From: Ensifer adhaerens
GTDB lineage: Bacteria > Pseudomonadota > Alphaproteobacteria > Rhizobiales > Rhizobiaceae
DNA length: 64,000 nucleotides
NCBI RefSeq assembly: GCF_001270265.1
Contig: NZ_LGAP01000002.1
Location: 62,001 to 126,000, forward strand
Reading direction: 5' to 3'
The notes beneath the pieces were generated by a model, which searched no databases, had not been told where the DNA came from, and was given only the letters and a program-made list of their open reading frames with translations. Positions 3-62,150 of this stretch are shown here, piece after piece. Position 1 is the stretch's first letter. Each line of letters begins with the position of its first letter. The translations under genes were made by a program, and so were the position numbers.

Positions 3-1229
3 ATGAGCACTTCCGAAGTGACGCTGGCGGCTGCGAACGCCGCCGGCAACGCGACCGCAGAGATCGGCAGCGACCAGACCCAGACGAAAGCAGAAGGCTT
101 TCTGCGCCCGGCAGCCGCGGAGCGACCGACGCCCTATATCGAAGTCAATGAGCCGCGCCTTGCCCGCAACTTAGAGGCCATGCAGCAGCGCGCCGATGCC
201 GCCGGCGTCTCGATGTTTCCGCACGTAAAAACGCACAAGAGCCTCTATGTCGCACGCCAGCAGCTGGCACTCGGCGCGCGCGGCATCACCGCGTCCAAGC
301 CCAGCGAGGCGCTGGTTTTCGCCGAAGCGGGAACCCCGTCGATCATCCTTGCCTATCCCATCGTCAAGGCGCAGTCGCTCGACCGTCTGCTGCCGGTGGT
401 GAAGGAGCGCGGCACGCAACTGCGTACGATTGCGGCGAGCACGCCGGGTGTCGACGCGCTATCTGAGGCCGCCACCCGTCACGGCGTCGAAATCGGTGTA
501 TTCCTCAAGGTCGATGTCGGCCTCGGTCGCGTCGGTCTCAAGCCGAACGATCCGGCGGCGCTCGAATTATGCGCTCTGATCGCGGCCGCCGAAGGCCTGC
601 ATTTTGCTGGCCTGTTATCGCATGCCGGCCATTCCTATGCGGCCGCGAGCCTGCAAAGCCTGGCCAAGGTCGCTTTTGATGAAGCGGCAGATCTCGCCGG
701 TCTCGCCGGCCGGCTTCAGGAGCGCGGCATTGCCGTCGACTGCCTTTCCATCGGTGCGACGCCGACCTGTTTGGGGGCGCCGCTGCCCTCTGAGGTCGAT
801 TGCATCCGGCCCGGCAACTACGTCTTTCTCGACGGCACCGCCCTTCGGCTGGGCATCTGCACCGCCGATGATCTGGCGCTCTCGGTGGTCGCCCGCGTCG
901 TTGCGTCCAATGACACGCATTTCATCATCGATGCCGGGTCCAAGTCGATGAGTTCCGATCGCGGCGCCCACGGCATGGGCGGCGCCGGCTTCGGCACCGT
1001 CGTCAGCGCCGAGGGCGATGGCGAAACGGGAATGTGGACGCTCGAGCGACTGTCCGAGGAGCATGGCTTCGTTCCCTTCTCGGGACGCCCCTTGCCGCTC
1101 GCCAGCCGGGTGCGGGTCTTCCCCAACCACTCCTGCGCCTCGATCGCCAACTTTGACCATTTCACGCTGCACCTCGCCAATGGCGAGGCGACGACGCTGC
1201 CCGTCGATGCCCGCTGCTGCCAGACCTGA
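3..1229 (+). CDS. DSD1-family PLP enzyme (D-serine dehydratase / D-threonine aldolase-like)
   Basis: The 408-residue protein has the alanine-racemase N-terminal barrel followed by the D-serine-dehydratase-like C-terminal domain. The PLP lysine is expected in PHVKTHK (Lys76). The pair His376/Cys378 in FPNHSCA matches the zinc ligands of eukaryotic-type D-serine dehydratase. The family cleaves or deaminates D-3-hydroxy amino acids in the cytoplasm; the exact substrate cannot be read here. The first about 40 residues are Ala/Thr-rich and unlike the family, so the true start may be an internal codon. Only two bases precede the first ATG, so its ribosome site is not visible. A SorC-type regulator gene follows on the same strand after 378 bases, so a functional link is possible but unproven. 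Confidence 0.8.
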   Translation: MSTSEVTLAAANAAGNATAEIGSDQTQTKAEGFLRPAAAERPTPYIEVNEPRLARNLEAMQQRADAAGVSMFPHVKTHKSLYVARQQLALGARGITASKPSEALVFAEAGTPSIILAYPIVKAQSLDRLLPVVKERGTQLRTIAASTPGVDALSEAATRHGVEIGVFLKVDVGLGRVGLKPNDPAALELCALIAAAEGLHFAGLLSHAGHSYAAASLQSLAKVAFDEAADLAGLAGRLQERGIAVDCLSIGATPTCLGAPLPSEVDCIRPGNYVFLDGTALRLGICTADDLALSVVARVVASNDTHFIIDAGSKSMSSDRGAHGMGGAGFGTVVSAEGDGETGMWTLERLSEEHGFVPFSGRPLPLASRVRVFPNHSCASIANFDHFTLHLANGEATTLPVDARCCQT

Positions 1230-1551
1230 TGGTGCAGGACGCGTGGTAGCGAACGCGCCGTATCCAACCGCCGACAGTTTCCCGCTGGTAGCGACGGCCA
1301 TCGCCTGGCTGGGAATTGCGCTTGTCGGCGATATTTAAGCACTGTAGAAAATTCAGACCGCCGACTGGCTGTCGCCCTTGATCGGCCGCGGCTGAGCGGG
1401 CTCGCTTATGCTGTCGCGACATCACCGACGGCGATCGAGCGCCGGTGATTGGCATCTCGTCGCGTGAATGGATGAAGCGGCCGAACGCGACAACTGCTTG
1501 CGGCGGCGCTTACCGCAAACACTCGCTCTCGTCACCCAATTGAGCAACGAT

Positions 1552-1581
1552 TTGACTTATGTCACGAGCGATGAATAATGT
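1552..1581 (+). promoter_or_regulatory. Candidate sigma-70 promoter of the SorC-type regulator gene
   Basis: TTGACT (1552-1557) and TAATGT (1576-1581) are separated by 18 bases and lie just upstream of the regulator start at 1608. The -35 element matches consensus at five of six positions. The -10 overlaps the operator-like site at 1577-1598, which would suit autoregulation. It was assigned by eye only. Confidence 0.35.
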
Positions 1582-1598
1582 CAGGCGTCGACAATTGA
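1577..1598. promoter_or_regulatory. Operator-like inverted repeat before the SorC-type regulator gene
   Basis: AATGTCA (1577-1583), GGCG, then TCGACAATTGA (1588-1598). The left arm equals the inner seven bases of the palindrome at 6399-6425 and the right arm matches its right arm at 9 of 11 positions, but the spacer is two bases shorter. This suggests one regulator binds both places, with the regulator controlling its own gene. Confidence 0.4.
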
Positions 1599-1607
1599 AG
1601 GATCCCC

Positions 1608-2588
1608 ATGCCTATCCGCAACACCGACCAGATCATGCACAAGGCCGCGTGGCTCTATTATAGCCATGGCCTGCGGCAGGACGAAGTCGCGCAGAAACTG
1701 GAGATATCCCGCGCCTCTGTTGCCACCTATCTCAGGCGGGCGCGCGAAACCGGGATCGTCAACATCACCACGTCCACGGAGCTTTTCACCGACGACGTGC
1801 TGGCGCGAGAACTCGAGGACGCGACCGGCGTCACTGCGGCCTGGATCGTACCGGAGGATCGCCAAGCCATGGACCCAACGGCTGAAATGCCGGTGCTGGC
1901 CGCATCCGCCTTCCTCGAGCTGATCAACAAGGGCGATCGCGTTGGTGTCGCCTGGGGACGCACGGTCTACCATATCGCCGATGTGATGCCCTTTGCCGAC
2001 CTGCGCGGCGTGACGGTGGTCCAGCTCTGCGGCAATCTCGGCGCACCCTATTCCTATCGGCCGGACCAGTGCACGACGGAGATCGCCCGCCGGCTCAATG
2101 CCGAAGGCATCAATTTCTACGCGCCGCTGGTGCTCTCGTCCGAGCGGCTGGCCGAGGAGCTTCGCGGCGAGCCGGTGATCCGGGAGCAGTTGTCGACGAT
2201 CGCCGACTGTCATCTGGCGCTCTATTCCGTCGGCGGCATCGAAGACGACAGCCACCTCGTCAAATGCGGCGCACTCAGCGCCAGCGAGATGCATCGCATG
2301 GGTGAAGAAGGCGCTGTCGGCGTCATCGCCGGGCAACTGATCGACGGCGACGGCCAGTGGATAAACTGCGCCCACAATCGGCGCTGCATCTCCGCCGACC
2401 TCGATTCGATCCGCGCCATCAGCAAGCGCATGCTGGTCGTCCAGGAAGACAGTAAGTTCGAGCCGCTGATGGCTGCGCTGAAGGGTGGCTTCGCTTCGCA
2501 TCTCGTCGTCACCACATCGATGGCGCGACGGGTGATGGATCGCTGGCGGCGCGACGGCCTCGGCAAGGTGCATGCCGCAACCGCCTAG
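1608..2588 (+). CDS. SorC/DeoR-type sugar-binding transcriptional regulator
   Basis: The 326-residue protein has an N-terminal helix-turn-helix (about residues 20-50, RQDEVAQKLEISRASVATYL) and a C-terminal sugar-binding domain of the SorC family (about 60-315), which typically binds a phosphorylated sugar effector. Length is normal for the family. The ATG at 1608 is preceded by GAAGGA. The gene converges with a ribose-type ABC importer operon across a bidirectional terminator. The operator-like sites at 1577-1598 and 6399-6425 suggest it controls itself, the importer and the mtnK-mtnA-transketolase-RLP operon. Effector candidates by pathway logic are phosphorylated 5-methylthioribose or 5-deoxyribose intermediates; this is inference. 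Confidence 0.85.
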   Translation: MPIRNTDQIMHKAAWLYYSHGLRQDEVAQKLEISRASVATYLRRARETGIVNITTSTELFTDDVLARELEDATGVTAAWIVPEDRQAMDPTAEMPVLAASAFLELINKGDRVGVAWGRTVYHIADVMPFADLRGVTVVQLCGNLGAPYSYRPDQCTTEIARRLNAEGINFYAPLVLSSERLAEELRGEPVIREQLSTIADCHLALYSVGGIEDDSHLVKCGALSASEMHRMGEEGAVGVIAGQLIDGDGQWINCAHNRRCISADLDSIRAISKRMLVVQEDSKFEPLMAALKGGFASHLVVTTSMARRVMDRWRRDGLGKVHAATA

Positions 2589-2632
2589 CCAGGTGTTGAA
2601 ACGCAGCACGGCACGCAAGGTCGGCCACATGC

Positions 2633-2662
2633 AAACGAGGCGGCCTTTCGACCGCCCCGTTT
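2633..2662. terminator. Bidirectional intrinsic terminator between convergent genes
   Basis: AAACGAGGCGG (2633-2643) pairs with CCGCCCCGTTT (2652-2662) at 10 of 11 positions around an 8-base loop. Runs of A and T flank the stem, so it can end transcripts from both sides: the regulator (plus) and the ABC operon (minus). Confidence 0.6.
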
Positions 2663-2682
2663 TCCTGCAAGTGGCTGTTTAA

Positions 2683-3726
2683 TCAGGGCTTCGGCATCCA
2701 TGCCGGCATGGCGACATCCGCATGGGCGAACTGCGGCAGCTTGGTGCCGAGTTCTTCCATGTTCTTGATATCTTGATCGTTCAGGTCCTTCTGCGTGATC
2801 AGCGTCGGGGGCACGATGACGCTCCGGCCCGGATCCTCGCCGGCAAGCAGCATGGCAAGCGTCCTGACCGAGACTTGCCCGACCACGGCCGGGTTGGTGG
2901 CAGCTGTTGCCGCCCATGCGGAATCGGGCTCGCGCATCGCCGCGATATCCGAGGTCGAGATGTCGGCGGAATAGATCTTCACGCTCGACGACAGACCGGC
3001 TTCGTCGACCGCAATCTTCACGCCCTTGGCGAACTCATCATAGGGCGCGAACATCACGGTGATATCCGGGTTGGCGGAGATGACGGAGCGCGCCTGGTTG
3101 GCGACGGAGTTGGCGATCGGGTTGTCCATCGTGCCGAACTGCGAGATCTCGTTGATACCCGAATACTTGGCCTTGAATTCCTTCCAGGTCTCGTCGCGAC
3201 GGTCGAGCGGCGCGATGCCGGCGACATAGACGTAACCGGCCTTGAAGCTCTCGCCGTTATCCTTGCTCGCCTGTTCCAAAGCGAGGCGGGCGAGGTCGCG
3301 GTCGGATTGCTCGACCTGCGGGATCTTCTCGTTTTCGACATTCACGTCGAAAGCCACGACCTTGATGCCCGCATCGACGGCGCGCTGGGCCGCTTCCTTC
3401 ATCGATTCCGTCAGGCCGTGCTGGATGATGATCCCCTGCACGCCGAGCGCGATCGCCTGGTCGACCATGTCGGCCTGAAGCGCTGCATCCTGCCGGCTGT
3501 CGAGAACCTGAAGCTGGACGCCGAGAGCCCTTGCCTGCGCCTCCACGCCGGCAAGGTAGGACTGGAAGAAGTCGCCGGTCGAGAGATAGCGCACGAGCGC
3601 GATCTTGACGTCGCCCGGCTTGTCGAACGGTTTCGGCATGTCGGCGGCGAAGGAAGCGGTGGCGAAAGCCACGGTTCCGGCAAGGCCAAGCGCCAGCTTG
3701 CCCATTGCTCTGCGTGTAAAGTTCAT
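2683..3726 (-). CDS. Ribose-type ABC transporter substrate-binding protein
   Basis: The 347-residue periplasmic-binding protein is of the RbsB/type-1 fold. The start at 3726 is chosen because GGAGGAGACTGAA directly precedes it; an upstream in-frame start would add 27 residues overlapping the permease gene. The N-terminus (MNFTRRAMGKLALGLAG..., cleavage after ASFA) is a signal peptide with twin arginines and a lipophilic core. It is the last gene of a minus-strand operon ATPase-permease-binding protein. The neighbouring mtnK/mtnA genes suggest a 5-substituted ribose as ligand, but the sequence alone does not identify it. Confidence 0.88.
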   Translation of the reverse strand: MNFTRRAMGKLALGLAGTVAFATASFAADMPKPFDKPGDVKIALVRYLSTGDFFQSYLAGVEAQARALGVQLQVLDSRQDAALQADMVDQAIALGVQGIIIQHGLTESMKEAAQRAVDAGIKVVAFDVNVENEKIPQVEQSDRDLARLALEQASKDNGESFKAGYVYVAGIAPLDRRDETWKEFKAKYSGINEISQFGTMDNPIANSVANQARSVISANPDITVMFAPYDEFAKGVKIAVDEAGLSSSVKIYSADISTSDIAAMREPDSAWAATAATNPAVVGQVSVRTLAMLLAGEDPGRSVIVPPTLITQKDLNDQDIKNMEELGTKLPQFAHADVAMPAWMPKP

Positions 3727-3778
3727 TTCAGTCTCCTCCACTGGTGAACGTTTGTTTTCCGCGGGCGGGGTATTCCCG

Positions 3779-4846
3779 TCAGCGTTTGCCTCTTTTAGAG
3801 AGCGCAAAGGTGAAGATCAGGGCGATGACGAGAACCGCGCCCTTGATGAAATCCTGGGTGTAATAGGGCGCGTTCATCATCGTCAGGCCCTGAAGCAGAA
3901 TGCCGACGAAGAGCGCGCCGATCGCCGTGCCGAACGCATTCGGTTTGGCGGCACCGAGCACTGCAAAGCCGATCAGCGCCGCAGCAACGGCATCGAGCAG
4001 CAGATTGTTGCCCGAGGCGATGTCGCCACGGCCGAGGCGGGCGGCGAGCAGGATGCCGCCGATAGATGCGAAGACGCCCGAGATGACATAGGCCGAGATC
4101 TTGTAGGCATTGACCGGGGCGCCCGCGAGGCCCGCGGCGCGCTCGTTGGAACCGACCGCATACATCATGCGCCCGAAACGGGTGTATTCGAGGAAGAACC
4201 AGATCACGACCGCCAGCACGATCAGCACCACGACGGAAACCGGCACGAGGTTCGGCAGGACGAGATCGAAGCGATGGCGGCCCAGCGCCAGGAAGGCCGG
4301 GCTGAAAGTGCCTGTAGCCACTGAGCCGTCGGGAAGTGTCATGCCGGCGGCGATGGAGCGGCCTTCGGTCGGTATGCGTTGCAGGCCGAGCAGCAGGAAC
4401 ATCATGCCGAGCGTTGCCAGGAGGTCCGGCACGCGCATATAGACGATGATGACGCCGTTGATCAGTCCGACAAGAACGCCGATCGCCAGGCAGACGAGCG
4501 TTGCCGTCAGCGCGTCGCCGCCCATCACCACCATCACATAGGATGACGCCATCATCGCCGTGGTCGCGACCGAGCCGATCGACAGGTCGAAGCCGCCGAC
4601 GACGAGCGTGGCCGTGACGCCGAGCGCCAGGATACCGGTGATCGATACGGATTGCAGGATGAAGACGGCGCTCTGCGGCGAGGAAAACCCGTTCGTCACC
4701 AGCGAGAAATAGACAACCAATCCGACCAGGAGAACAAGGAAGCCGTATTTGATCGCGACGTCGCGCAGGCTAACTCCGGCACTTGGCGGCGGCGCCGGCA
4801 GCACCGAAGCGGCGGGGGACGCGGTTTTCATCTGTTCACTGCTCAT
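3779..4846 (-). CDS. Ribose-type ABC transporter permease
   Basis: The 355-residue inner-membrane protein has about nine to ten hydrophobic segments and is of the RbsC (BPD_transp_2) family. The conserved stretch GGFDLSIGSVATTAMM lies in the centre-left part, as in ribose/xylose permeases. Its start overlaps the end of the ATPase gene by 11 bases and its stop is 52 bases before the binding-protein start, so the three genes form one operon. The first about 30 residues are a Pro/Ala-rich cytoplasmic tail. It should form the membrane channel of the importer with the 507-residue ATPase. Confidence 0.9.
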   Translation of the reverse strand: MSSEQMKTASPAASVLPAPPPSAGVSLRDVAIKYGFLVLLVGLVVYFSLVTNGFSSPQSAVFILQSVSITGILALGVTATLVVGGFDLSIGSVATTAMMASSYVMVVMGGDALTATLVCLAIGVLVGLINGVIIVYMRVPDLLATLGMMFLLLGLQRIPTEGRSIAAGMTLPDGSVATGTFSPAFLALGRHRFDLVLPNLVPVSVVVLIVLAVVIWFFLEYTRFGRMMYAVGSNERAAGLAGAPVNAYKISAYVISGVFASIGGILLAARLGRGDIASGNNLLLDAVAAALIGFAVLGAAKPNAFGTAIGALFVGILLQGLTMMNAPYYTQDFIKGAVLVIALIFTFALSKRGKR

Positions 4847-6359
4847 GGGGCTGTCCCTGCTGATGATGTTGACCGGCGATCTCCTGGAGGAGACGCTCGA
4901 CGTCGACCGAGGCGTTTCGATGCTCGCCGACGATCGTGTGCTCCGACATCACGAGAATGCGGTCGGCGATCTCGAAGGCTTCGTCGAGTTCGGTCAGGAA
5001 AACGATGGTTGCGCGGCCGGAGGCCGAGGCGCGCAGCTTGGCGCCGATATCGCGGCGCGCGGCGATGTCCACACCCTGGAAGGGCTCGTCGAGGATCAGG
5101 AGGCGCGAAGGCTCGGAAAGCCAGCGCCCGACCATGATCTTCTGCTGATTGCCGCCGGAAAGCGTCTGCATCTCGTCGCGCTCGCTGCGGCAGACGACGC
5201 CAAGTGCGGCGATCTGCGCCCGCGATTTCGCCCGTTCGGCCCGGCGGCTCGATATGCCGAAGCGCGACAGCCGCTTGAGGAACGGCAGGCTGATATTCTC
5301 GTAGATGTTGAAATCCGGAACGATGCCGCTGTCAGCCCGATCCTTGGCGACCAGAAACACGCCCTTGGCGATCGCCTGTCCGGTCGATTGTGGATGGTAG
5401 GATGCGCCGTCGAGCGTCATCTGGCCGGCTGCTGCCGACCGCGCCCCGAACAGCGTCTCGGCCAGCGCCGTCTTGCCGACACCGACGAGCCCGGTGACGG
5501 CGACGATTTCGCCATCGCCAAGCGCCAGGTCGAACGGACGGGACGTCTCCGTAAGCCGCAGGCTCTTCACCGAAAAAACTGCGCCACGCGCTTCGCGCAC
5601 CGTCACGGCCCCTGCCGACACCTTTTGCCCGAGCATCGCGTTGACGGCAGCCTCGTAGTCGAGATCCGCCCCTTCGAAGCGGCCGGTTATGCGCCCGTCG
5701 CGCAGCGTGACGATGCTGTCGGCGAGCCTGCGGATGTCCGACATCCGGTGCGAGATATAAAGGATCGCCACGCCGCGGGCTTTCAGCCGATCGAGAAGCT
5801 CGAACAGCCGATCGGCCTCAGCACTCGACAGCGACGAGGTCGGCTCGTCGAGGATCAGCACCTGCGGCTCGTGTGCCATGGCGCGGGCGATGGCGACCAT
5901 CTGCCGGTCTGCGAGCGTCAGATCGTTGATATCGGCGGAAAGATCGATGGCCAGACCCATGCGGGCAGCAACGACAGCCGCCTCGCGCCTTACACGGCGC
6001 GGATTGAAGAACAGGCGCGCGCCGCGGCCGTTCAGGCGATCGAGCGTGAGATTGGTCGCGACGTCGAGATCGGAGACGACGCCGTCATTGATGTTCTGGT
6101 GAACCGTCACCACGCCGGCCCGGATCGCCTCTGCCGGCGTCGCCGGCGCGAATGAGAGGTCGCTGAGCCGCATATCCCCGGCATCTCTGACGTAGACGCC
6201 ACTGAGGATGCGCACCAGTGTCGACTTTCCAGCGCCGTTGGCCCCCATCAGCACCGTGACGGCACCCTTGCGCAATTCGAGATCGACGCCCTTCAGGACC
6301 GGTATCAGCCCGAAGGATTTGCGCACGCCCTCGATGCGAAACACTGCTTGTTCGCTCAT
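4836..6359 (-). CDS. Ribose-type ABC transporter ATP-binding protein (two ATPase domains)
   Basis: The 507-residue RbsA-type protein has two nucleotide-binding domains. Domain 1 has Walker A GANGAGKST and Walker B VLILDEPTSSL with a degenerate signature (LTLADRQM). Domain 2 has the altered Walker A GLVGVGKT, signature LSGGNQQK and Walker B LLILDEPFQGVD. Such asymmetry is normal for carbohydrate-uptake family 2 importers. It is the first gene of the minus-strand operon. Its promoter region is shared with the divergent mtnK operon and holds the palindrome at 6399-6425. The gene start is preceded by a GGGAGGAG-type ribosome site. Confidence 0.92.
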   Translation of the reverse strand: MSEQAVFRIEGVRKSFGLIPVLKGVDLELRKGAVTVLMGANGAGKSTLVRILSGVYVRDAGDMRLSDLSFAPATPAEAIRAGVVTVHQNINDGVVSDLDVATNLTLDRLNGRGARLFFNPRRVRREAAVVAARMGLAIDLSADINDLTLADRQMVAIARAMAHEPQVLILDEPTSSLSSAEADRLFELLDRLKARGVAILYISHRMSDIRRLADSIVTLRDGRITGRFEGADLDYEAAVNAMLGQKVSAGAVTVREARGAVFSVKSLRLTETSRPFDLALGDGEIVAVTGLVGVGKTALAETLFGARSAAAGQMTLDGASYHPQSTGQAIAKGVFLVAKDRADSGIVPDFNIYENISLPFLKRLSRFGISSRRAERAKSRAQIAALGVVCRSERDEMQTLSGGNQQKIMVGRWLSEPSRLLILDEPFQGVDIAARRDIGAKLRASASGRATIVFLTELDEAFEIADRILVMSEHTIVGEHRNASVDVERLLQEIAGQHHQQGQPHEQ

Positions 6360-6398
6360 GCTCTCCTCCCAATGAAGGCAGGTTAGGATGGCTATCCA

Positions 6399-6425
6399 TC
6401 AAATGTCAAGGCTGTTGACATTTGA
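6399..6425. promoter_or_regulatory. Perfect palindromic operator between the ABC importer and the mtnK operon
   Basis: TCAAATGTCAA (6399-6409) and TTGACATTTGA (6415-6425) form a perfect 11-base inverted repeat around GGCTG. Each arm contains a TTGACA hexamer: 6415-6420 reads toward mtnK, and the complement of 6404-6409 reads toward the importer. Weak -10-like hexamers (TACCTA and TAACCT) lie 18 bases further on each side. A protein bound here would cover both divergent -35 boxes, as expected for a repressor. The best candidate is the SorC-type regulator at 1608-2588. Confidence 0.65.
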
Positions 6426-6504
6426 CAGAATGGCGACTTACCTATGAGCCACGACAGCATGACGAGGAGCGGCCGAGGCCGGTCATGCCGATAAGGAGGA
6501 CCGT

Positions 6505-7776
6505 ATGGACACACACGTTTTCGAGGCGTTGAGCGCCGAAACGCTGCCATCAAGACTGAGCGGCAATTCAGCACTTTGCGACAGGATCGGCGGCGATCAT
6601 GGCCGCTGGCAGGTCAAGGAGGTCGGCGACGGCAACCTCAATCTCGTCTTCATCGTCACGGGCGAGAAGGGTGCGGCGATCGTCAAGCAGGCGCTTCCCT
6701 ATGTCAGGCTCGTCGGCGAGCGCTGGCCTTTGCCGCTGAAGCGCTCCTTCTTCGAATACCACGCCCTCATCCGCCAGGCGGCGCGAGACCCGGGCATGGT
6801 GCCGGAAATCCTGTTCTTCGACGCCGAGCAGGCGATGATCATCATGGAATACCTGACGCCGCACGTGATCCTGCGGCGCGCGCTGATCGAGGGGCGCACG
6901 CTGCCGAAGATCGGTCGCGATCTCGGGCTTTTCGCAGCGCGCACGCTTTTCCGCGGCTCGGATCTTTCAATGCCGACGCGCGACAAGAAAGCCGATCTCG
7001 CCCTGTTCGCCGACAATGTCGAACTGTGCGACATCACCGAAAACCTTGTTTTCTCCGATCCCTACTTCGAGGCGGAGATGAACCGGCACACGACACCGCA
7101 TCTCGACGGCCTTGTCGAGGAACTCCGCCGCGACCGTGACCTGAAGGTCGAAGCCCAGCGACTGAAGCACATTTTCTCCGCCAAGGCAGAAACCCTCTGC
7201 CACGGCGACCTGCATACCGGTTCGGTCATGGTCACCGACGACGAGACGCGCGTCATCGACCCGGAATTCGCCTTTTACGGCCCGATCAGTTTCGATGTCG
7301 GCATGCTCTTGGCGAACTTCTGGATGAGTTACTTCTCGCAGGATGGCCACGAGAACGCCGCCGGCGAACGCGACCAGATGCGCGCCTACCTGCTGGATAC
7401 GACAGAGACGATCTGGGAAACCTTCTGCGACGAGTTTTCCGCACTCTGGCGCAGCGAGCGCAAGGGCATCCTCTACCAGGCAAGCCTTTTCGAAGACCGC
7501 GACGACCCGTTCGGCTCGGAACAGGCGCTGACCATCGTCCTTGATGAGATCTACCGCGAGATGCTCGGCTTTGCCGGGGTCGAGATCCTCAGGCGCATCC
7601 TCGGCCTTGCCCACAATGCCGATTTCGAAACCATCGGCGACCTCAGCCGCCGCGCCGCGTGCGAAAGCAAGGCGCTGAAGCTCGGACGTCATCTTGCCGT
7701 CAACCGGGATCGCATTGCGAGCCTCAGGGACATTCGCGCCACTGCGCAACGGCTTCAGCAGGAGACACTTTCGTGA
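6505..7776 (+). CDS. mtnK: S-methyl-5-thioribose kinase
   Basis: The 423-residue protein matches MtnK: a nucleotide-binding segment [14 protein letters not shown] near residues 40-55, the catalytic loop [12 protein letters not shown] near 231-242, and the metal-binding IDPEF nearby, all of the choline-kinase/APH fold. It phosphorylates 5-methylthioribose at C1 using ATP, in the cytoplasm; homologues also accept 5-deoxyribose. The ATG is preceded by an excellent AAGGAGG (6494-6500). Its last four bases overlap the mtnA start. It opens a five-gene operon and is divergent from the ribose-type importer, so the importer probably supplies its substrate. Confidence 0.93.
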
Positions 7777-8867
7777 AAGTCGGAGAAAAGCACTACCATA
7801 CGATCTGGCTCAACGCCGACGGCCGCTCGGTCGATATCATCGACCAGCGCTGGCTGCCGCACGAGTTCCGGATCGTCACGCTGAAGACGGTTGCCGATGT
7901 TGCGGTCGCCATCCGTGACATGTGGGTGCGCGGTGCACCGCTGATCGGCGTCACCGCCGCCTACGGCATTGCCATTGCCATGGCGGACGACCCGTCCGAC
8001 CGTCATCTCGACGCGGTCTGGGAAGAACTCAACGAGACCCGGCCGACGGCGATCAACCTGCGCTGGGCGCTCGAGGCCATGCGGCAGTTCCTGCGGCCGC
8101 TTTCGGTTGAAAACCGTGCCGAGGCCGCCTATCGACGCGCCGGCGAAATTGCCGAGGAAGACGTGCAACTCAACCGGGCGATCGGTGCCAACGGCCTTAA
8201 GATCATCCGCGAGATCGCGGCAACCAAGAAGCCCGGCGAGCCCGTCAATATATTGACCCACTGCAATGCGGGCTGGCTGGCAACCGTCGACTACGGAACG
8301 GCGACCGCACCGATCTACATGGCGACGGAGGCGGGCATTCCCGTCCACGTCTATGTGGACGAAACCCGGCCGCGCAACCAGGGTGCGCAGTTGACGGCCT
8401 GGGAGCTGAACGGTCATGGCGTGCCGCACACGCTGATCGTCGACAATGCCGGCGGCCACCTGATGCAGCACGGCGCCGTCGACATGGTGATCGTCGGCAC
8501 GGACCGCACTACCGCCAACGGCGATGTCTGCAACAAGATCGGCACCTACCTGAAGGCGCTTGCAGCCAGCGACAACAACGTTCCCTTCTATGTCGCGCTC
8601 CCCTCGCCGACCATCGACTGGACGGTCAAGGACGGCATCAAGGAGATCCCGATCGAGGAGCGCACCGGCGACGAGGTGAGCTTTGTGCAAGGCCGCGGCC
8701 CCGATGGCTCGATCATCTCGGTTCGCGTCTCGCCCGAAGGCAGCCCGTCGGCAAACCCCGCCTTCGACGTGACGCCGGCGCGGCTGATCACCGGCCTCAT
8801 CACCGAGCGCGGCGTCGCCATGCCTTCGCCGCAGGGCCTCAAAGCGCTGTTTCCGGAAAGGAGCTGA
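7773..8867 (+). CDS. mtnA: S-methyl-5-thioribose-1-phosphate isomerase
   Basis: The 364-residue protein of the eIF2B-alpha-like isomerase family converts methylthioribose-1-phosphate to methylthioribulose-1-phosphate. The catalytic Cys lies in [18 protein letters not shown] and the catalytic Asp in [19 protein letters not shown]. The GTG at 7773 is chosen: it overlaps the mtnK stop (GTGA), follows GGAGA at 7761, and gives the normal N-terminus for the family. A longer reading frame upstream would run through the mtnK gene. No mtnB, mtnC, mtnD or mtnE follows; a split transketolase and a RuBisCO-like protein take their place. Confidence 0.93.
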
Positions 8868-8870
8868 CCG

Positions 8871-9806
8871 GTGAGCCTGACAAACCAGAAAACCACCGAA
8901 GAGATCGCGCTCGGCATTCGCCGCCGCGTCTTCTTCCACACGATGAAGAACAATGGCGGCTATCTGAGCCAGGCCTGCTCGGCCGCCGAAAGCCTCGCTC
9001 TGCTCTACAACGAGATCCTCAAGCTCGGAGAGCCGACCTTGCCGAAGGTGCCGCTGCCATTTCGCGGCGTACCTTCCGCTGATAATCCCGATGCCTTTAC
9101 CGGCGCCGGCTACCACGGTCCGGCGGCCCCGGACTACGATCGCTTCTTCATCTCCCCGGCGCATTACGCGCTGGTGATCTATTGCGCGTTGATCGAGGTC
9201 GGCCGCATGGACGACGGGGCGCTCGACCACTTCAACAAGGATGGAAGCTCGGTCGAGATGATCGGCGCCGAGCACAGCCCGGGCATGGAGGTAACGACAG
9301 GCTCGCTGGCGCAGGGGCTTTCCATGGCCGCGGGCGTCGCCTTCGCTCGCAAAAAGCAGAAAGAACCGGGCAAGGTCTGGGTCTACATGTCCGACGGGGA
9401 ATTCCAGGAAGGTCAGACCTGGGAGTGCCTTGCCGCCATGGCCCACCACGGCATCGACAACATTCGCGTCATCGTCGACGTCAACCGCCAGCAATGCGAC
9501 GGCGCCATGTCCTCGGTTCTCGATCTCGGTGACCTTCCCGGCCGGGTCGAAGCCTTCGGCGCCACCTGCCGCTCGATCGACGGCCACGATCTTCAAGCCA
9601 TGCGCGAGGCGGCCAATAGCACTGAGCCGGGCAAGCCGCTGATCATTCTCGCGAATACGTCGCCGTTCCAGGGAATGGACTTCCTGCAAAAGCGCTTCCC
9701 GCGTCTTCATTACGTGCGCTTCAAGAGCGCCGAGGAGAGGCTCGAAATGCAGGCAGCGCTTGCCGCCGAACTGGGCGTGAGCCCGAACGAAATGGAAGGG
9801 GCCTGA
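8871..9806 (+). CDS. Transketolase, N-terminal subunit (thiamine-diphosphate binding)
   Basis: The 311-residue protein corresponds to the pyrophosphate-binding half of transketolase. The ThDP motif starts at SDGEFQEGQTWE and ends about 30 residues later at DVNRQQCDG (normally GDG...N). The GTG start at 8871 follows GGAAAGGAG. The C-terminal half is encoded two bases downstream of its stop, so the enzyme should be a heteromer. Split transketolases of this form are known in carbohydrate catabolic clusters, for example the apulose-4-phosphate transketolase of D-apiose use. Here the linkage to mtnK, mtnA and an RLP suggests the substrate is the ketose phosphate made by those enzymes. Confidence 0.9.
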   Translation: MSLTNQKTTEEIALGIRRRVFFHTMKNNGGYLSQACSAAESLALLYNEILKLGEPTLPKVPLPFRGVPSADNPDAFTGAGYHGPAAPDYDRFFISPAHYALVIYCALIEVGRMDDGALDHFNKDGSSVEMIGAEHSPGMEVTTGSLAQGLSMAAGVAFARKKQKEPGKVWVYMSDGEFQEGQTWECLAAMAHHGIDNIRVIVDVNRQQCDGAMSSVLDLGDLPGRVEAFGATCRSIDGHDLQAMREAANSTEPGKPLIILANTSPFQGMDFLQKRFPRLHYVRFKSAEERLEMQAALAAELGVSPNEMEGA

Positions 9807-9808
9807 CC

Positions 9809-10810
9809 ATGGTCGAAATCGTCAACCGCCCTTATGCCGGAGCATTCGAGGCTTTCGCGACAGCGCGCCCGGAAGTGCTTTGCCTTTCCGCCGACCTCAC
9901 CTCATCCTGCGAGGTCGACGGCTTTCGCGACCGGCATCCGGACCAGTTCTTGTCGCTCGGCATGGCCGAGCAGAACATGCTCTCCTTCGCCGGCGGGCTT
10001 GCCATGCAGGGTTACCGGCCCTTCATCCACACCTTCTCGGTGTTTCTCTATCGTCGCCCCTACGATCAGCTGATCAATTCTATTGCCTATTCCAACCGCA
10101 AGGTCCGTCTGATGGGCTTCCTGCCGGGGATCACCACGCCCGGCGGCATCACCCACCAGGCGATCGAGGACATCGCCGTCATGCGCGCCGTGCCGAACAT
10201 GACCATCCTGGAAACCGGCGACGCGACCGAGGTCGAGACGGTCCTGGAGGTTGCCGATGCCATCGACGGGCCGGTCTATGTCCGCATCCTTCGCGGTGAG
10301 GTCCCCCGGCTTTTCTCGACGCCGTTCGCGTTCAACAAGCTACGTACCCTGTCGGAAGGCGACGACATCCTCGTCGTCAGTTCCGGGGTCTGCACCGAGG
10401 AGGCCCTGCGGGCCACCCGGCCGATCGAAGCGCGCGGCATCGGGCTTCACCATCTGCACGCCTCGACGCTGAAGCCGTTTGACCGAGACGGGTTGCTCAA
10501 GGCCGCGCGCGGCAAGAAGGGCATCGTCACGCTGGAAAACCACACCATCGTCGGTGGGCTTGGTTCGGTTGTTGCCGAGATCGTCGCTGAAGAGGGCCTT
10601 GGCGTCCGGCTGAAGCGTCTCGGCCTGAAGGACACCTTCGCCCATGGCGCTTCGAAGCCCTACCTGATGAAGAAATATGGTCTCGACGCCGGCGCGCTGG
10701 TGTCGGCGATCGAAGAGTTGACCGGCAAGACGCTCGGCATCGGCGAGGACGAACTGACCGAGGTCCGCCTCGACCATGTGCACTCGGCCCAGAAGGCGGA
10801 GGCGCTGTGA
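9809..10810 (+). CDS. Transketolase, C-terminal subunit
   Basis: The 333-residue protein has the pyrimidine-binding and C-terminal domains of transketolase. The catalytic Glu that activates ThDP lies in SLGMAEQNMLSFAGGLA (about residues 50-65), followed by the usual ITHQAIEDIAVMRAVPNM segment. It is complementary to the N-terminal subunit encoded just upstream. The stop TGA overlaps the ATG of the RuBisCO-like gene by one base, so translation is coupled. The subunit does not look like DXP synthase, which is a single long chain, although the two halves share its chemistry. Confidence 0.9.
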   Translation: MVEIVNRPYAGAFEAFATARPEVLCLSADLTSSCEVDGFRDRHPDQFLSLGMAEQNMLSFAGGLAMQGYRPFIHTFSVFLYRRPYDQLINSIAYSNRKVRLMGFLPGITTPGGITHQAIEDIAVMRAVPNMTILETGDATEVETVLEVADAIDGPVYVRILRGEVPRLFSTPFAFNKLRTLSEGDDILVVSSGVCTEEALRATRPIEARGIGLHHLHASTLKPFDRDGLLKAARGKKGIVTLENHTIVGGLGSVVAEIVAEEGLGVRLKRLGLKDTFAHGASKPYLMKKYGLDAGALVSAIEELTGKTLGIGEDELTEVRLDHVHSAQKAEAL

Positions 10811-11928
10811 TGGCACCACGGTTCACCGTCAGCTATTACGTCAGGGCCGCCGACGAATCCGAGGCGCGCACGCGCGCGCTGGATATCGCACTGGAACAGA
10901 CGGTCGAGATCCCGCGCGATGTCGTGCCCAAAGGTTATGTCGAGGATGAAATCCTCGGCAAACTCGAAGCCCTCGCGCCAGACCCGAACGGCCGGCCCGG
11001 TTATCTCGCGACCATCTCCTATAGCGAAGACGATGTCGGCGGTGACTTCCTGCAGTTCCTCAACATCGTCTTCGGCAACAGCTCGATCAAGCCGGGCTTG
11101 AAGGTCGAGGACATCGGCCTGTCCGCGGGTATCCTGGCGCTTTGCCCCGGCCCCCGCCATGGCATTGCCGGCCTGCGGCAAAGGGCCGGCATCGGGGCGC
11201 AGCCGCTGTTGATGTCCGCCATCAAGCCGGTCGGATTGTCTTCCGCCGAACTCGCGCGCCGCGCACACGACTTCGCGCTCGGCGGCATGCATTTCGTCAA
11301 GGACGACCATGGGCTGGTGGATCAAAGGACGTCACCGTTCGCCGAACGGCTGGCGGCCTGCGTCGACGCCATCGGCGAAGCCAATGCTAAGGGCGGCGGG
11401 CGGGCGAGTTTCGTGCCGAACATCACCGCGTCGGCAAAAGAACTGTTCGAGCGGGCGATGATGGCGCAGGGGGCCGGCGCCGGTGCCGTCATGATATCCC
11501 CGGCGCTTGCCGGCTACGATGTGATCCACACGCTGGCGGCCGATCCTGACTTCACCCTGCCGATCGTTTCGCACCCGGCATTTTCGGGTGCCAACGTCGT
11601 CTCGCCGGATACCGGATTTTCGCATCGCTGCTTCTACGGCGCCTTGCAGCGCCTGATGGGCGTCGATGCGGCAATCTATCCGAATTTCGGCGGCCGCTTC
11701 GGCTTCACCCGCGAGGAATGCCAGTCGATCGCCAAGGCCTGCGCCGTCGACATGGGCGGCCCGAAGGCGATCGTGCCAGCCCCCGGTGGCGGCATGAATC
11801 TCGGCCGTGTGCCGGAGATGCGCGAAGCGTACGGCCAAGACGTGATGTACCTGATCGGAGGCGCGCTGCTTCAGGACACGGACATTGTCTCAGCCAGCCG
11901 CCGGATCGTCGAAGCGGTCGCTAGCTAA
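10810..11928 (+). CDS. RuBisCO-like protein (form IV large-subunit homologue)
   Basis: The 372-residue RuBisCO large-subunit homologue has an alpha/beta N-terminal domain and a TIM barrel. The barrel keeps AIKPVG (lysine equivalent to RuBisCO K175) and KDD of the metal site (Lys164, carbamylated in RuBisCO). However, the motif reads KDDH instead of KDDE, and loop 6 reads PNFGGRFGF with no K334 equivalent, so it should not fix CO2. Form IV proteins act as enolases, isomerases or decarboxylases on phosphorylated ketoses; in Rhodospirillum rubrum one isomerises methylthioribulose-1-phosphate to methylthioxylulose-5-phosphate. Placement after mtnK-mtnA-transketolase supports a related role. The ATG at 10810 is preferred (GGAGG at 10797); a GTG at 10807 is possible. 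Confidence 0.9.
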   Translation: MAPRFTVSYYVRAADESEARTRALDIALEQTVEIPRDVVPKGYVEDEILGKLEALAPDPNGRPGYLATISYSEDDVGGDFLQFLNIVFGNSSIKPGLKVEDIGLSAGILALCPGPRHGIAGLRQRAGIGAQPLLMSAIKPVGLSSAELARRAHDFALGGMHFVKDDHGLVDQRTSPFAERLAACVDAIGEANAKGGGRASFVPNITASAKELFERAMMAQGAGAGAVMISPALAGYDVIHTLAADPDFTLPIVSHPAFSGANVVSPDTGFSHRCFYGALQRLMGVDAAIYPNFGGRFGFTREECQSIAKACAVDMGGPKAIVPAPGGGMNLGRVPEMREAYGQDVMYLIGGALLQDTDIVSASRRIVEAVAS

Positions 11929-11967
11929 GCGTCCAACGGTACAGCAACAAGATAACCTCCCCGGGTG

Positions 11968-11995
11968 CTGCCGAGCGCGATGGTGCGCTCGGCAG
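11968..11995 (+). terminator. Hairpin after the RLP operon (probable terminator)
   Basis: CTGCCGAGCGC (11968-11978) pairs perfectly with GCGCTCGGCAG (11985-11995) around six bases, 40 bases after the RLP stop. The T tract that follows (TCTTG) is poor, so termination efficiency is uncertain. It also lies downstream of the minus-strand MFS gene ending at 12061 and may serve both. Confidence 0.5.
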
Positions 11996-12060
11996 TCTTG
12001 ATCACCGTCGCGGCAAGGACACGGCCTGCCGTGCACCCACAAAGGCGCTTCCCGGGGTGC

Positions 12061-13344
12061 CTACTCCCTCGCACGAACGACTTCGTCGCCTGTGGAAGAA
12101 CTTGCAGCACTCCCGGTTCGTCTGATGTCGAGCTGCCGCAGTCCCGGAAGGAACAAAGCAAGCAGCGTCGTGGCGGCCAGAGCCGCGGCGCAGCCGAAAA
12201 GCAGCCACTGCGCGCCAAAGACTTCGACCGCCCCACCGGCCAGAATAATGGCCAGCGGGATCGCCGACAGTTCCAGCGCATCCGCCGCACCCAGCACCCG
12301 TCCACGCAACTTCACCGGCACGCGGCGAAGAGCGGCTGTCGCGACGATCGGCCCGATCGGCCCCGTTGCAAACCCGGCCATGGCGCCGGCCGCAATCAGC
12401 ACCGAAATCCGAGGTGCGAATGCGAGCACGAGGATGGCTTGCGCCTCGACGGCGCAACCGACGATGAGGATGCCACGTCCGGAAAGCCGGTGTCCCCAGG
12501 CGGCATAGACAAGCGTGCCAACGATAGCGCCGCCGCCGGTCGCCGACAGGAACAGGCCGAGGCTCATGGCGCTTTGCCCGGTCGCCTTGAAGAAGGCCGG
12601 CATGACCACCGCCTCTAAAGCACCGAAGATGATGCCGAACAACGTTCCGAGCATAATGAGACTGCGCAGCAGCGGATCGCGCAGCAGAAACCGGACGGCT
12701 TCCAATGCGCCCGCCAGACCGATGGCAACGTCCTCGGTTCCGACGGATTTGCGGCGCGTCGGCAGGGAGATGACGTCGAGTATGGCCGCCGCAAGGGAAC
12801 ATCCCGCGGTCAGCCACAGCGTGTCTTCGACACCGACCAGTGCGATCATCACGCCGGCAAGCGCCGGGCCGACCAGGACACCGGCGTTCTCGACCAATTC
12901 GTCGATGGCCTTGACCCGCTCCAGCCGGAACCCGGCAAGACGCGCCAGTTCCGGATGGCGGCTTTCAGCGGCAATGGACGCAGGACCGTCCATTGCCGCA
13001 CCGATCGCGATCAATACCACGAGCGTGCCAATCCCGAGCAAATCGAGATGATAGAGCAGCGGCACGGCCGCCACCGCCAGCGCGCTTGTAAAATCGCCGG
13101 TGAATGCGATCCAGCGCGGGCCGAAGCGATCGACAAGCCCGCCGCCGAACAGCGAGCCGGCAATCATCGGCAAAACGCCTGCGGCTGCGGCAACACCGGT
13201 CCACAACGGGCTTCCAGTCAACGTCAGCACAAACCAGGGCAACGCCACCATGGCGACCGCATTTCCGAGCGTCGAGAATGCGCCTGCCATGACGCTGCCC
13301 AAAACCGGCAGGCGGCGCCGGATGCGGATGGAATGCCCGCTCAT
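12061..13344 (-). CDS. MFS transporter (EntS/MFS_3-like exporter)
   Basis: About 427 residues with some 12 hydrophobic segments in two bundles. The loop between helices 2 and 3 reads GGLVDRFGPRW, as in major facilitator exporters of the enterobactin/macrolide type. The start at 13344 (MSGHSIRIRRRLPVLGS) gives a typical basic cytoplasmic N-terminus. In-frame starts up to 13380 exist, and none has a clear ribosome site. The gene stands alone, convergent with the RLP operon and divergent from a GNAT gene. The substrate cannot be predicted. Confidence 0.8.
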   Translation of the reverse strand: MSGHSIRIRRRLPVLGSVMAGAFSTLGNAVAMVALPWFVLTLTGSPLWTGVAAAAGVLPMIAGSLFGGGLVDRFGPRWIAFTGDFTSALAVAAVPLLYHLDLLGIGTLVVLIAIGAAMDGPASIAAESRHPELARLAGFRLERVKAIDELVENAGVLVGPALAGVMIALVGVEDTLWLTAGCSLAAAILDVISLPTRRKSVGTEDVAIGLAGALEAVRFLLRDPLLRSLIMLGTLFGIIFGALEAVVMPAFFKATGQSAMSLGLFLSATGGGAIVGTLVYAAWGHRLSGRGILIVGCAVEAQAILVLAFAPRISVLIAAGAMAGFATGPIGPIVATAALRRVPVKLRGRVLGAADALELSAIPLAIILAGGAVEVFGAQWLLFGCAAALAATTLLALFLPGLRQLDIRRTGSAASSSTGDEVVRARE

Positions 13345-60668: not shown

Positions 60669-62150
60669 ATGACGACGCCGTGCCCACGCCAGCCACACCT
60701 TACCGGTCCGCTCGATGCGTTTCGGGAGAGCCTTGCTGGCGATAACGCGATCGCGGCCCTGCGAGCCGGACTGGTCGGCAAGAACGCAAAGATCGAGGGG
60801 CCTTTCGGCGTCAAGAAGCTCGTCTATGCCGACTATGTCGCTTCGGGCCGGGCATTGATGCAGATCGAGGATTTCATTCTCGAACAGGTGCTACCCTACT
60901 ACGCCAACAGCCACACCGAGGCCTCCTACTGCGGTGGTTTCATGACCAGGCTGCGCCGCGATGCGCGCGCGGCGATCGCCGCCTGCTGCGGGGCGGGACC
61001 TGAGCACGCCGTCATTTTCGCGGGTTCGGGCGCCACCGCCGGCATCAATCGGCTGGTGAAGCTGCTGGGGGTCGCCGACGCGGTAGTGGCCGGCCGGCGC
61101 GTGCGCATCCTGATCGGGCCCTATGAGCATCATTCCAACATCCTGCCCTGGCGCGAAAGCGGCGCCGAGGTGGTCGAGATCGCCGAATGCTCGACGGGTG
61201 GTCCGGATCTCGCAGCGCTCGATGAAGCGTTGAAGCAACCGGCCGATCTCACCGTTTGCGCATTCTCCGCCGCCTCCAATGTCACGGGCATTGTCACCGA
61301 CGTCGCGGCCGTCACCAGCATCGCCAAGGCTGCAGGCGCAAAGATGGTCTGGGACTATGCCGGTGCTGGGCCGTACCTGCCGATCGACATGTCGCCCGAC
61401 AAGGACGCCGCGATCGACGCCGTCGTCGTCTCGCCGCACAAATTCATCGGCGGTCCCGGCACGTCAGGCGTGCTGATCCTGCGACGTGACGCGGCCGTTA
61501 CCGTGAAGCCCTCCTGGCCCGGCGGCGGCACCGTCAAGTTCGTTTCGCCCACCGGCCATGACTACAGCCAAAGCCTCGAGGCGCGCGAGGAGGCAGGCAC
61601 GCCGAATGTCGTCGGCGATATCCGCGCGGCACTCGCCTTCCTCGTCAAGGAAGCGATTGGTGCCGAGGCAATGCAGGCCAAAAGTGCCGAGCTGACCCGC
61701 AGCGCGATTGCCGCGTGGCAGCGCAACGAGCGGCTGGAACTGCTTGGTCCTCTAGAACCAAAGCGGCTGCCGATCTTTTCCTTCCGCGTTAAGGACGGCA
61801 AGGGCGGCCATGTCCACCAGCAACTCGTGACCCGTATGCTCAGCGATCGCTTCGGCATCCAGGCGCGCGGCGGCTGCGCCTGCGCCGGGCCCTATGTGCA
61901 CCGGCTGCTGGGCATTGATGACGAAGAATCGCAGCGACTGCGCGAGGCCATCCTTTCAGGACAGGAAATGCTGAAGCCGGGCTTTGTCCGACTGAACTTG
62001 AGCGTCCTGCTTGCAGACGAGGAAGTGGCGTTCATCCTCGACGCCGTCGCCAAGCTTGCCATCGACGCGACCAGCTACGAGCAACACTATGATTTCGACC
62101 CGGCACGCGCCATTTTCTTCCCGCGCGCCGCGCTTGCAATGGGGGCGTGA
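60669..62150 (+). CDS. Class V aminotransferase / cysteine desulfurase-like protein
   Basis: The 493-residue protein has the PLP Lys in VVSPHKFIGGPGTSGVLIL (about residue 258) and a Cys-containing loop RGGCACAGPYVHRLLGI (about 400) where SufS/NifS enzymes carry the catalytic Cys. AGSGATAGINRL is the cofactor-phosphate region. It is longer than SufS because of N- and C-terminal extensions. It likely takes sulfur from cysteine (or a related thiol) as persulfide. The ATG follows GGGAGGAAACG. The gene precedes a persulfide-dioxygenase-like gene by three bases. Confidence 0.88.
   Translation: MTTPCPRQPHLTGPLDAFRESLAGDNAIAALRAGLVGKNAKIEGPFGVKKLVYADYVASGRALMQIEDFILEQVLPYYANSHTEASYCGGFMTRLRRDARAAIAACCGAGPEHAVIFAGSGATAGINRLVKLLGVADAVVAGRRVRILIGPYEHHSNILPWRESGAEVVEIAECSTGGPDLAALDEALKQPADLTVCAFSAASNVTGIVTDVAAVTSIAKAAGAKMVWDYAGAGPYLPIDMSPDKDAAIDAVVVSPHKFIGGPGTSGVLILRRDAAVTVKPSWPGGGTVKFVSPTGHDYSQSLEAREEAGTPNVVGDIRAALAFLVKEAIGAEAMQAKSAELTRSAIAAWQRNERLELLGPLEPKRLPIFSFRVKDGKGGHVHQQLVTRMLSDRFGIQARGGCACAGPYVHRLLGIDDEESQRLREAILSGQEMLKPGFVRLNLSVLLADEEVAFILDAVAKLAIDATSYEQHYDFDPARAIFFPRAALAMGA

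Follow-up and report, generated by a model that had tools for sequence, protein, structure and literature searches.

We studied a gene cluster of Ensifer adhaerens in which a RuBisCO-like protein (RLP) is encoded next to the N and C halves (TKN and TKC) of a split transketolase. The window, by which we mean the whole stretch of 64,000 nucleotides analysed, covers positions 62,001 to 126,000 of contig NZ_LGAP01000002.1 (assembly GCF_001270265.1; contig C12 in our numbering of this 7.46 Mb genome, which is 99.99% complete). Our best reading is a regulated operon for the uptake and catabolism of 5-methylthioribose (MTR), the sugar remaining from methylthioadenosine (MTA), and possibly also of 5-deoxyribose; that the RLP and the transketolase act in series on the carbon chain of one of these sugars we hold to be likely, with a probability of roughly 0.65. 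Scans of the open reading frames (ORFs) with family models found, between 1608 and 11928, a SorC regulator, a ribose-type ABC importer on the minus strand (2683-6359 overall) and the plus-strand series mtnK-mtnA-TKN-TKC-RLP, which confirms both the gene set and the divergent, tightly spaced arrangement that the initial annotation had placed here:

1608..2588, plus strand: SorC/DeoR-type sugar-binding transcriptional regulator (PF04198, 166.6 bits; NF053881, 159 bits, below its cut-off of 420)
2683..3807, minus strand: periplasmic sugar-binding protein, ribose type (PF13407, 113 bits)
3779..4846, minus strand: ribose-type ABC permease (PF02653, 136 bits; PRK09512, 153 bits, below its cut-off of 398)
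4836..6359, minus strand: sugar ABC ATPase with two ATP-binding domains (PF00005, two stretches)
6399..6425, no strand: palindrome TCAAATGTCAA-5 nt-TTGACATTTGA, with perfect 11-nt arms, between the divergent operons
6505..7776, plus strand: mtnK, S-methyl-5-thioribose kinase (TIGR01767, 484 bits, cut-off 275)
7773..8867, plus strand: mtnA, S-methyl-5-thioribose-1-phosphate isomerase (TIGR00512, 442 bits, cut-off 279)
8871..9806, plus strand: TKN, N half of the split thiamine-diphosphate transketolase (PF00456, 62.8 bits, cut-off 22)
9809..10810, plus strand: TKC, C half of the split transketolase (PF02779, 99.5 bits; PF02780, 74.1 bits)
10810..11928, plus strand: RLP, probably of the 5-methylthioribulose-1-phosphate (MTRu-1-P) isomerase type (PF00016, 83.6 bits, cut-off 30.1)

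The GTG start of mtnA overlaps the stop of mtnK (GTGA), gaps of 3 bp and 2 bp separate mtnA from TKN and TKN from TKC, and TKC and RLP overlap in TGATG; the scan of MtnA began at an upstream GTG and that of the RLP at 10807.

Several routes of methylthioribose use are known, which differ in the steps after MTRu-1-P. In the pathway proposed here the importer would take up MTR, MtnK would convert it to MTR-1-phosphate and MtnA would isomerise this to MTRu-1-P; the RLP would then shift the carbonyl, giving 1-methylthio-D-xylulose-5-phosphate, and the split transketolase would cleave the C2-C3 bond, releasing glyceraldehyde-3-phosphate and leaving the other two carbons, with the methylthio group, bound to thiamine diphosphate (ThDP). 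Every one of these reactions is our inference, the role of the transketolase being read from its context and from the exchange of partners; what was observed is the gene content, the linkage, that exchange and the assignments of family and fold.

The pairing of transketolase and RLP is conserved. Scanning an alignment of the TKN half against a collection of 84,980 species gave at least 562 confirmed relatives, and the best 80, that is the most window-like, were analysed. Together with seven further loci from the sampled genomes, after removal of eight identical to the 80, they form a transketolase-anchored set of 87 loci, on which alone co-occurrence was counted. A mixed set of transketolase-anchored and RLP-anchored loci comprises 110 non-redundant loci, left from 123 after discarding two with incomplete TKN (L089 and L146) and 11 duplicates. 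The initial annotation had named a lack of transketolase or RLP in most homologous clusters as the outcome that would speak against it; the RLP was found in 81/87 loci (76 of the 80 best relatives and five of the seven others), at a distance of at most 100 bp from TKC in all but one of these 81 (the exception, L109, is at 2.3 kb). MtnK and MtnA, whose co-occurrence the annotation had likewise proposed to check, are both present in 72 of the best 80. The order seen here is found again in Rhizobiaceae, Devosiaceae, Brucellaceae and Aurantimonadaceae, and in Rhodobacterales in a rearranged form, and because an order recurs across all these groups the grouping goes beyond chance. Counting matches of at least 416 bits, with the Ensifer genome itself included, the TKN subfamily occurs in 13 of 151 genomes sampled at family level, 3 of 385 at class level and 5 of 349 at phylum level.

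Six of the 87 loci are without RLP (L104, L106, L107, L110, L173 and L183). All six carry an FGGY kinase nearest to xylulokinase (in L106 with 289 bits, below the cut-off of 380), a homologue of BisC-type S/N-oxide reductases, 46-51% identical to the copy of Ponticoccus, and a homologue of the zinc dehydrogenase (26% identity in L173); an AraD-like protein is found in five of the six. The kinase offers another way to a xylulose-5-phosphate, and perhaps these loci with split transketolase encode a different, sulfoxide-sugar pathway.

Concerning the RLP, its best match by sequence in the PDB is 3qfw (245 bits), and the predicted model superposes on it with a TM-score of 0.87 and 37% identity by fold alignment; 3qfw is one of the RLPs of Rhodopseudomonas palustris. 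By fold, MtnW structures come next after it, and the protein stays below the cut-offs of both the MtnW model TIGR03332 (154 bits, cut-off 513.6) and the OiaX model (67.9 bits, cut-off 700). As described in PMC5893883, R. palustris RLP1, whose gene stands beside a cupin, was assayed as an MTRu-1-P 1,3-isomerase producing 1-methylthioxylulose-5-phosphate, the route continues through the cupin to methanethiol, and an aldolase route operates in parallel. To count partners, we searched 397 genomes of the order, took the 36 RLP places that, apart from the window, scored best (about 129 bits or more) and set aside two that hold other RLP types; cupins were scored by homology to the one adjoining the Terrarubrum RLP. 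In the remaining 34 loci the partner is the split transketolase in 20, a methylsulfurylase-type cupin in 11 and neither in three, and no locus has both. A maximum-likelihood tree was built from 64 RLPs, including 47 of the 104 transketolase-linked ones, thinned at 82% identity; the cupin-linked RLPs form a single group (support 79/78), and one change is enough when just the transketolase and cupin labels are considered. Fifty-three positions are at least 95% conserved both in 103 transketolase-linked and in 12 cupin-linked RLPs, among them K140, K165, D167 and H256, which we take to correspond to active-site residues of RuBisCO. The simplest reading of this exchange of partners is that cupin and transketolase both take the product of the RLP.

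The transketolase itself belongs to a subfamily that, on its sequences, appears distinct and sharply bounded from other transketolases. In the sampled genomes its TKN members score 416-622 bits and other transketolases no more than 179, and among the 60 of 215 plasmid records listed identities fall either at 47.2% and above or at 35.3% and below. The motifs GGYLSQ and VEMIGAEHSPG of TKN and FLPG, TTPGG and HQ of TKC are invariant or nearly so in 110 rows, and the transketolase glutamate and the thiamine-binding motifs are retained: E54 of TKC, presumably the catalytic glutamate, stands in 110/110 rows. Adjacent genes encode a ThDP-binding half and a pyrimidine/C half, as in split-chain transketolases, and both sequences match best the split transketolase 6yak/6yaj (TKC versus 6yaj, 213 bits), which is also the best PDB match of the TKN model (6yak). 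According to the title of entry 6yak, such a split enzyme of matching architecture is an active alpha2beta2 heterotetramer. In the AlphaFold model of TKN alone most of residues 124-145, which hold the subfamily motif, fall below a confidence (pLDDT) of 50, so that the geometry of the active site cannot be read from it. TKN lacks a histidine equivalent to H110 of human transketolase, a residue that we take to act at the C1 hydroxyl of the donor, and this lack would suit a donor whose C1 carries no hydroxyl. In-frame TGA codons noticed in two relatives (L112 and L113) were dismissed; in L113 the codon is simply the stop of TKN, which precedes the following start codon, and the match had run past it.

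It could also be that the transketolase serves pentose-phosphate flux and only shares the operon, with the RLP product handled elsewhere. Operons do contain general enzymes, and the reaction of the transketolase is here a prediction; nevertheless we consider this explanation very improbable, given the sharp separation of the subfamily, the fact that the transketolase adjoins the RLP across very different gene orders, and the weakness of the sole match that the single cupin query has in the genome at an E-value of 0.01 (23 bits, 34% over 76 amino acids).

As to the chemistry, ThDP cleavage of 1-methylthioxylulose-5-phosphate leaves an enamine with the methylthio group on the adjacent carbon, positioned for elimination as in phosphoketolase; among ThDP enzymes phosphoketolase loses hydroxide and sulfoacetaldehyde acetyltransferase loses sulfite. 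Simple protonation of the fragment would give methylthioacetaldehyde, which is also the aldehyde of the aldolase route, and the RLP would then be pointless; we therefore favour elimination, with transfer as the main alternative. The bound fragment would most likely expel methanethiol and leave an acetyl unit, as acetyl phosphate or acetate, and the methanethiol might pass to methionine through MetY, two O-acetylhomoserine sulfhydrylases of this type being above cut-off in the genome. On this reading, to which we give odds clearly short of even, the split enzyme would be a ThDP-dependent 'methylthioketolase', turning 1-methylthioxylulose-5-phosphate into methanethiol, glyceraldehyde-3-phosphate and acetyl phosphate or acetate; the expulsion of methanethiol is the least sure part of the pathway. 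In ordinary group transfer, instead, the enzyme would move the methylthio- or deoxy-two-carbon unit onto an aldose phosphate, yielding a 1-methylthio- or 1-deoxy-ketose phosphate without losing methanethiol. Family and fold are those of a transketolase, and such enzymes take odd sugars, for example 5-deoxyribose as an acceptor in vitro (PMC8102628). The unusual ketose would need more enzymes, and of the ORF families clustered around the 80 best relatives no further one of enzymes is widespread; we judge group transfer unlikely.

Among known systems, the MTA-isoprenoid shunt of Rhodospirillum rubrum and R. palustris resembles the cluster in MtnA followed by a related RLP that, here too, would act on MTRu-1-P (PMC5893883). 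In that shunt the cupin yields 1-deoxyxylulose-5-phosphate, while the Ensifer cluster has the split transketolase in its place and adds a dedicated importer and MtnK. The dihydroxyacetone phosphate (DHAP) shunt (mtnK-mtnA-ald2) shares MtnK and MtnA, both above curated cut-offs; it relies on the class II aldolase Ald2, whereas our cluster is without aldolase and adds RLP and transketolase. Universal or Bacillus-type methionine salvage (MtnB, MtnW-MtnX or MtnC, MtnD, MtnE) has MtnK, MtnA and a RuBisCO-family protein in common with the cluster and differs in its MtnB and MtnD: neither passes its cut-off anywhere in the Ensifer genome (MtnB, 60.3 bits at best against 137; the dioxygenase MtnD, 14.5 against 27; MtnC, MtnX and MtnE were outside the search). 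MTA phosphorylase also stays below cut-off genome-wide (92 against 275 bits). D-apiose/apionate catabolism (OiaX), finally, is a sugar-catabolic operon using an RLP or a split transketolase, the AptAB of D-apiose catabolism being, we presume, an apulose-4-phosphate split transketolase; the RLP of our cluster is far below the OiaX cut-off. The same genome does possess OiaX as its second RLP (780 bits, cut-off 700; G000:C24:78000-94978, L199 6805-9444), beside an OiaK-like kinase (451.5 bits, below the cut-off of 700) and a sugar importer, in a separate apionate-type pathway.

The absence of the later salvage enzymes, as first annotated, held for MtnB and MtnD, for a cupin methylsulfurylase (none among the cluster ORFs and none convincing in the genome) and for an aldolase within the cluster. 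Beyond the cluster, a correction concerns the aldolase. A fused class II aldolase/short-chain dehydrogenase, usually directly after SorC (for example L023 1485-3539), is carried by about half of the relatives (49 of the best 80; 55 of the 110 non-redundant loci); in the window it is found neither between 2588 and 2683 nor anywhere in 1608-11928, and a 51% identical homologue lies on another contig of the genome, C46. A branch resembling the DHAP shunt may run alongside in the relatives that carry the fusion. In Martelella (L061 and L074) SorC and the aldolase fusion stand after the RLP.

The combination of RLP, transketolase and methylthioribose, which the initial annotation did not know to be described, did not turn up in searches of the open-licence literature of PMC, judged by the titles and opening lines of the abstracts listed and with subscription papers outside the search; from review PMC6302742 the word 'transketolase' is absent. 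We consider the cluster a real, conserved variant of methylthioribose catabolism that is apparently undescribed. It shows relatives of RuBisCO exchanging their reaction partner, and gives a testable function to a conserved pair annotated, in the records consulted, just as 'transketolase' and 'RuBisCO large subunit C-terminal-like'; the RLP product would apparently be split to central metabolites instead of becoming an isoprenoid precursor. If so, the organism could grow with methylthioribose supplying its carbon and sulfur, releasing or recycling methanethiol, a further bacterial way to recycle a sulfur-containing waste sugar. A true methylthioketolase would mean that a thiolate serves as leaving group in a ThDP reaction, and would give methylthioribose use an oxygen-independent, carbon-yielding branch, with a second entry, through S-oxide reductase and xylulokinase-like kinase, in other, partly marine, relatives.

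The neighbourhood of some relatives bears on the identity of the substrate. The Ponticoccus genes run purine-nucleoside phosphorylase, deaminase, MtnA, BisC-type reductase (901 bits with the bisC_fam model, below its cut-off of 1018), TKN, TKC and RLP; Frigidibacter has phosphorylase, deaminase and MtnA beside transketolase and RLP, and MtnK is absent from both. Four Devosia/Pelagibacterium loci keep the MtnK version with phosphorylase and deaminase next door, alongside a complete or partial nucleoside importer, and L187 has MtnK, MtnA, phosphorylase and deaminase as neighbours. Since phosphorylase and deaminase adjoin these loci, the metabolite entering there is probably the sugar from a 5'-modified nucleoside. 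The BisC-type reductases suggest a thioether that possibly arrives as its sulfoxide. ORFs like homocysteine S-methyltransferase stand near loci with RLP, transketolase and BisC (L147 3434-4411, 103 bits; L148 15300-16256, 105 bits; cut-off 215), and a third, judged by eye, near the RLP-BisC locus L146 (4235-5152).

The real substrate might instead be 5-deoxyribose, left from the 5'-deoxyadenosine of radical-SAM enzymes; the RLP would then form 1-deoxyxylulose-5-phosphate and the transketolase would cleave it in the manner of DXS to glyceraldehyde-3-phosphate and acetaldehyde or an acyloin. This fits the match of TKC to the DXS model (165 bits, below the cut-off of 466) and the aldolase/dehydrogenase fusion in half of the 110 loci, which recalls the logic of the DHAP shunt, and PMC10986504 names MtnK and MtnA of E. 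coli for both sugars. The BisC-type reductases hint at a thioether, and according to the same source E. coli K-12 needs no more than mtnK, mtnA and an aldolase to grow on 5-deoxyribose, making an RLP superfluous. We hold 5-deoxyribose as the true substrate to be unlikely, while giving it some weight.

Against methylthioribose catabolism by RLP and transketolase in series several points must be weighed. A loop of about six residues (around residues 264-272 of the Ensifer RLP), kept in transketolase-linked RLPs, is missing from the cupin-linked RLPs shown, and for this reason the reaction of our RLP may differ from theirs. The RLP of a Vibrio nigripulchritudo plasmid (L027 11953-13098) has the motif KEDDS instead of KDDHG, in a locus where an FGGY kinase replaces MtnK and MtnA. 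An RLP doing another reaction (enolase or epimer-specific isomerisation) in the breakdown of a sugar other than methylthioribose would agree with the loop, with the second-best fit to MtnW folds and with RLP-transketolase pairs elsewhere that have FGGY kinase, dehydrogenase and AraD-like protein in place of MtnK and MtnA; it sits badly with MtnK and MtnA above strict cut-offs here and present together in most of the best relatives, and we find it quite improbable. Neither partner stands in three of the 34 RLP loci (in L137, one of the three, the RLP is at the end of its contig), and with 'neither' as a third label the tree requires six changes, its long branches leaving depth unsure. A rule of RLP or xylulokinase-like kinase, never both, holds for the six loci without RLP and was dropped all the same: at least two genomes have the RLP alongside the kinase module, with kinase, AraD-like protein and S/N-oxide reductase on a wider stretch, so the two are not strict alternatives, and an FGGY kinase also lies near two MtnK/MtnA loci. 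Loss of the H110 equivalent was rejected as diagnostic of a C1-substituted donor, because most of the nearest other split transketolases lose it too: the histidine remains in 4 of 18 such ORFs, and the H30 equivalent in 5 of 18 (two of the 18 come from one locus, L119, and one of these may be spurious). BisC-type reductases stand in just 12 of the 110 loci and 6 of the 87 transketolase-anchored ones, which makes the thioether argument one from a minority. The fate of an acetyl unit is unsupported, and we know of no assay of this transketolase subfamily.

The palindrome between the divergent operons is the sole match to its sequence in the window at up to three mismatches (none in 100 shuffles). 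Of 82 homologous intergenic regions 64 contain its core, TGTCAA-N5-TTGACA, which none of the 8,200 shuffled sequences of like composition does; counting a looser-spaced form, 70 of the 82 have it and 12 have neither. The core was also found upstream of the Ponticoccus phosphorylase gene. Judged by its sequence, it is a probable operator, and we infer that SorC probably governs both divergent promoters through this single site. It should be noted that the palindrome overlaps TTGACA, a -35-like element, on both strands, and its conservation may for this reason partly reflect -35 boxes.

Of the importer genes, the ATPase has AraG, YtfR, LsrA and RbsA as best NCBIfam matches, all below cut-off, and the true start of the sugar-binding protein is probably downstream of the listed TTG, the annotated orthologue being shorter (1044 bp). 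A promoter scan of 1200-12300 gave a single site (1552-1579; 1.9 in shuffles) and ten terminator-like sites were counted there against 7.5 in shuffles, results to which we give no weight; Rfam had no match at gathering scores in the window. Upstream (3-1229) lies a gene with an alanine-racemase/D-serine-dehydratase domain, distantly like the 3-hydroxy-D-aspartate aldolase BhcC (117 bits, cut-off 690), and downstream an MFS transporter, and both look unrelated to the cluster. The closest RLP among plasmid records, 93% identical, is on the megaplasmid pT173e of Ensifer canadensis.

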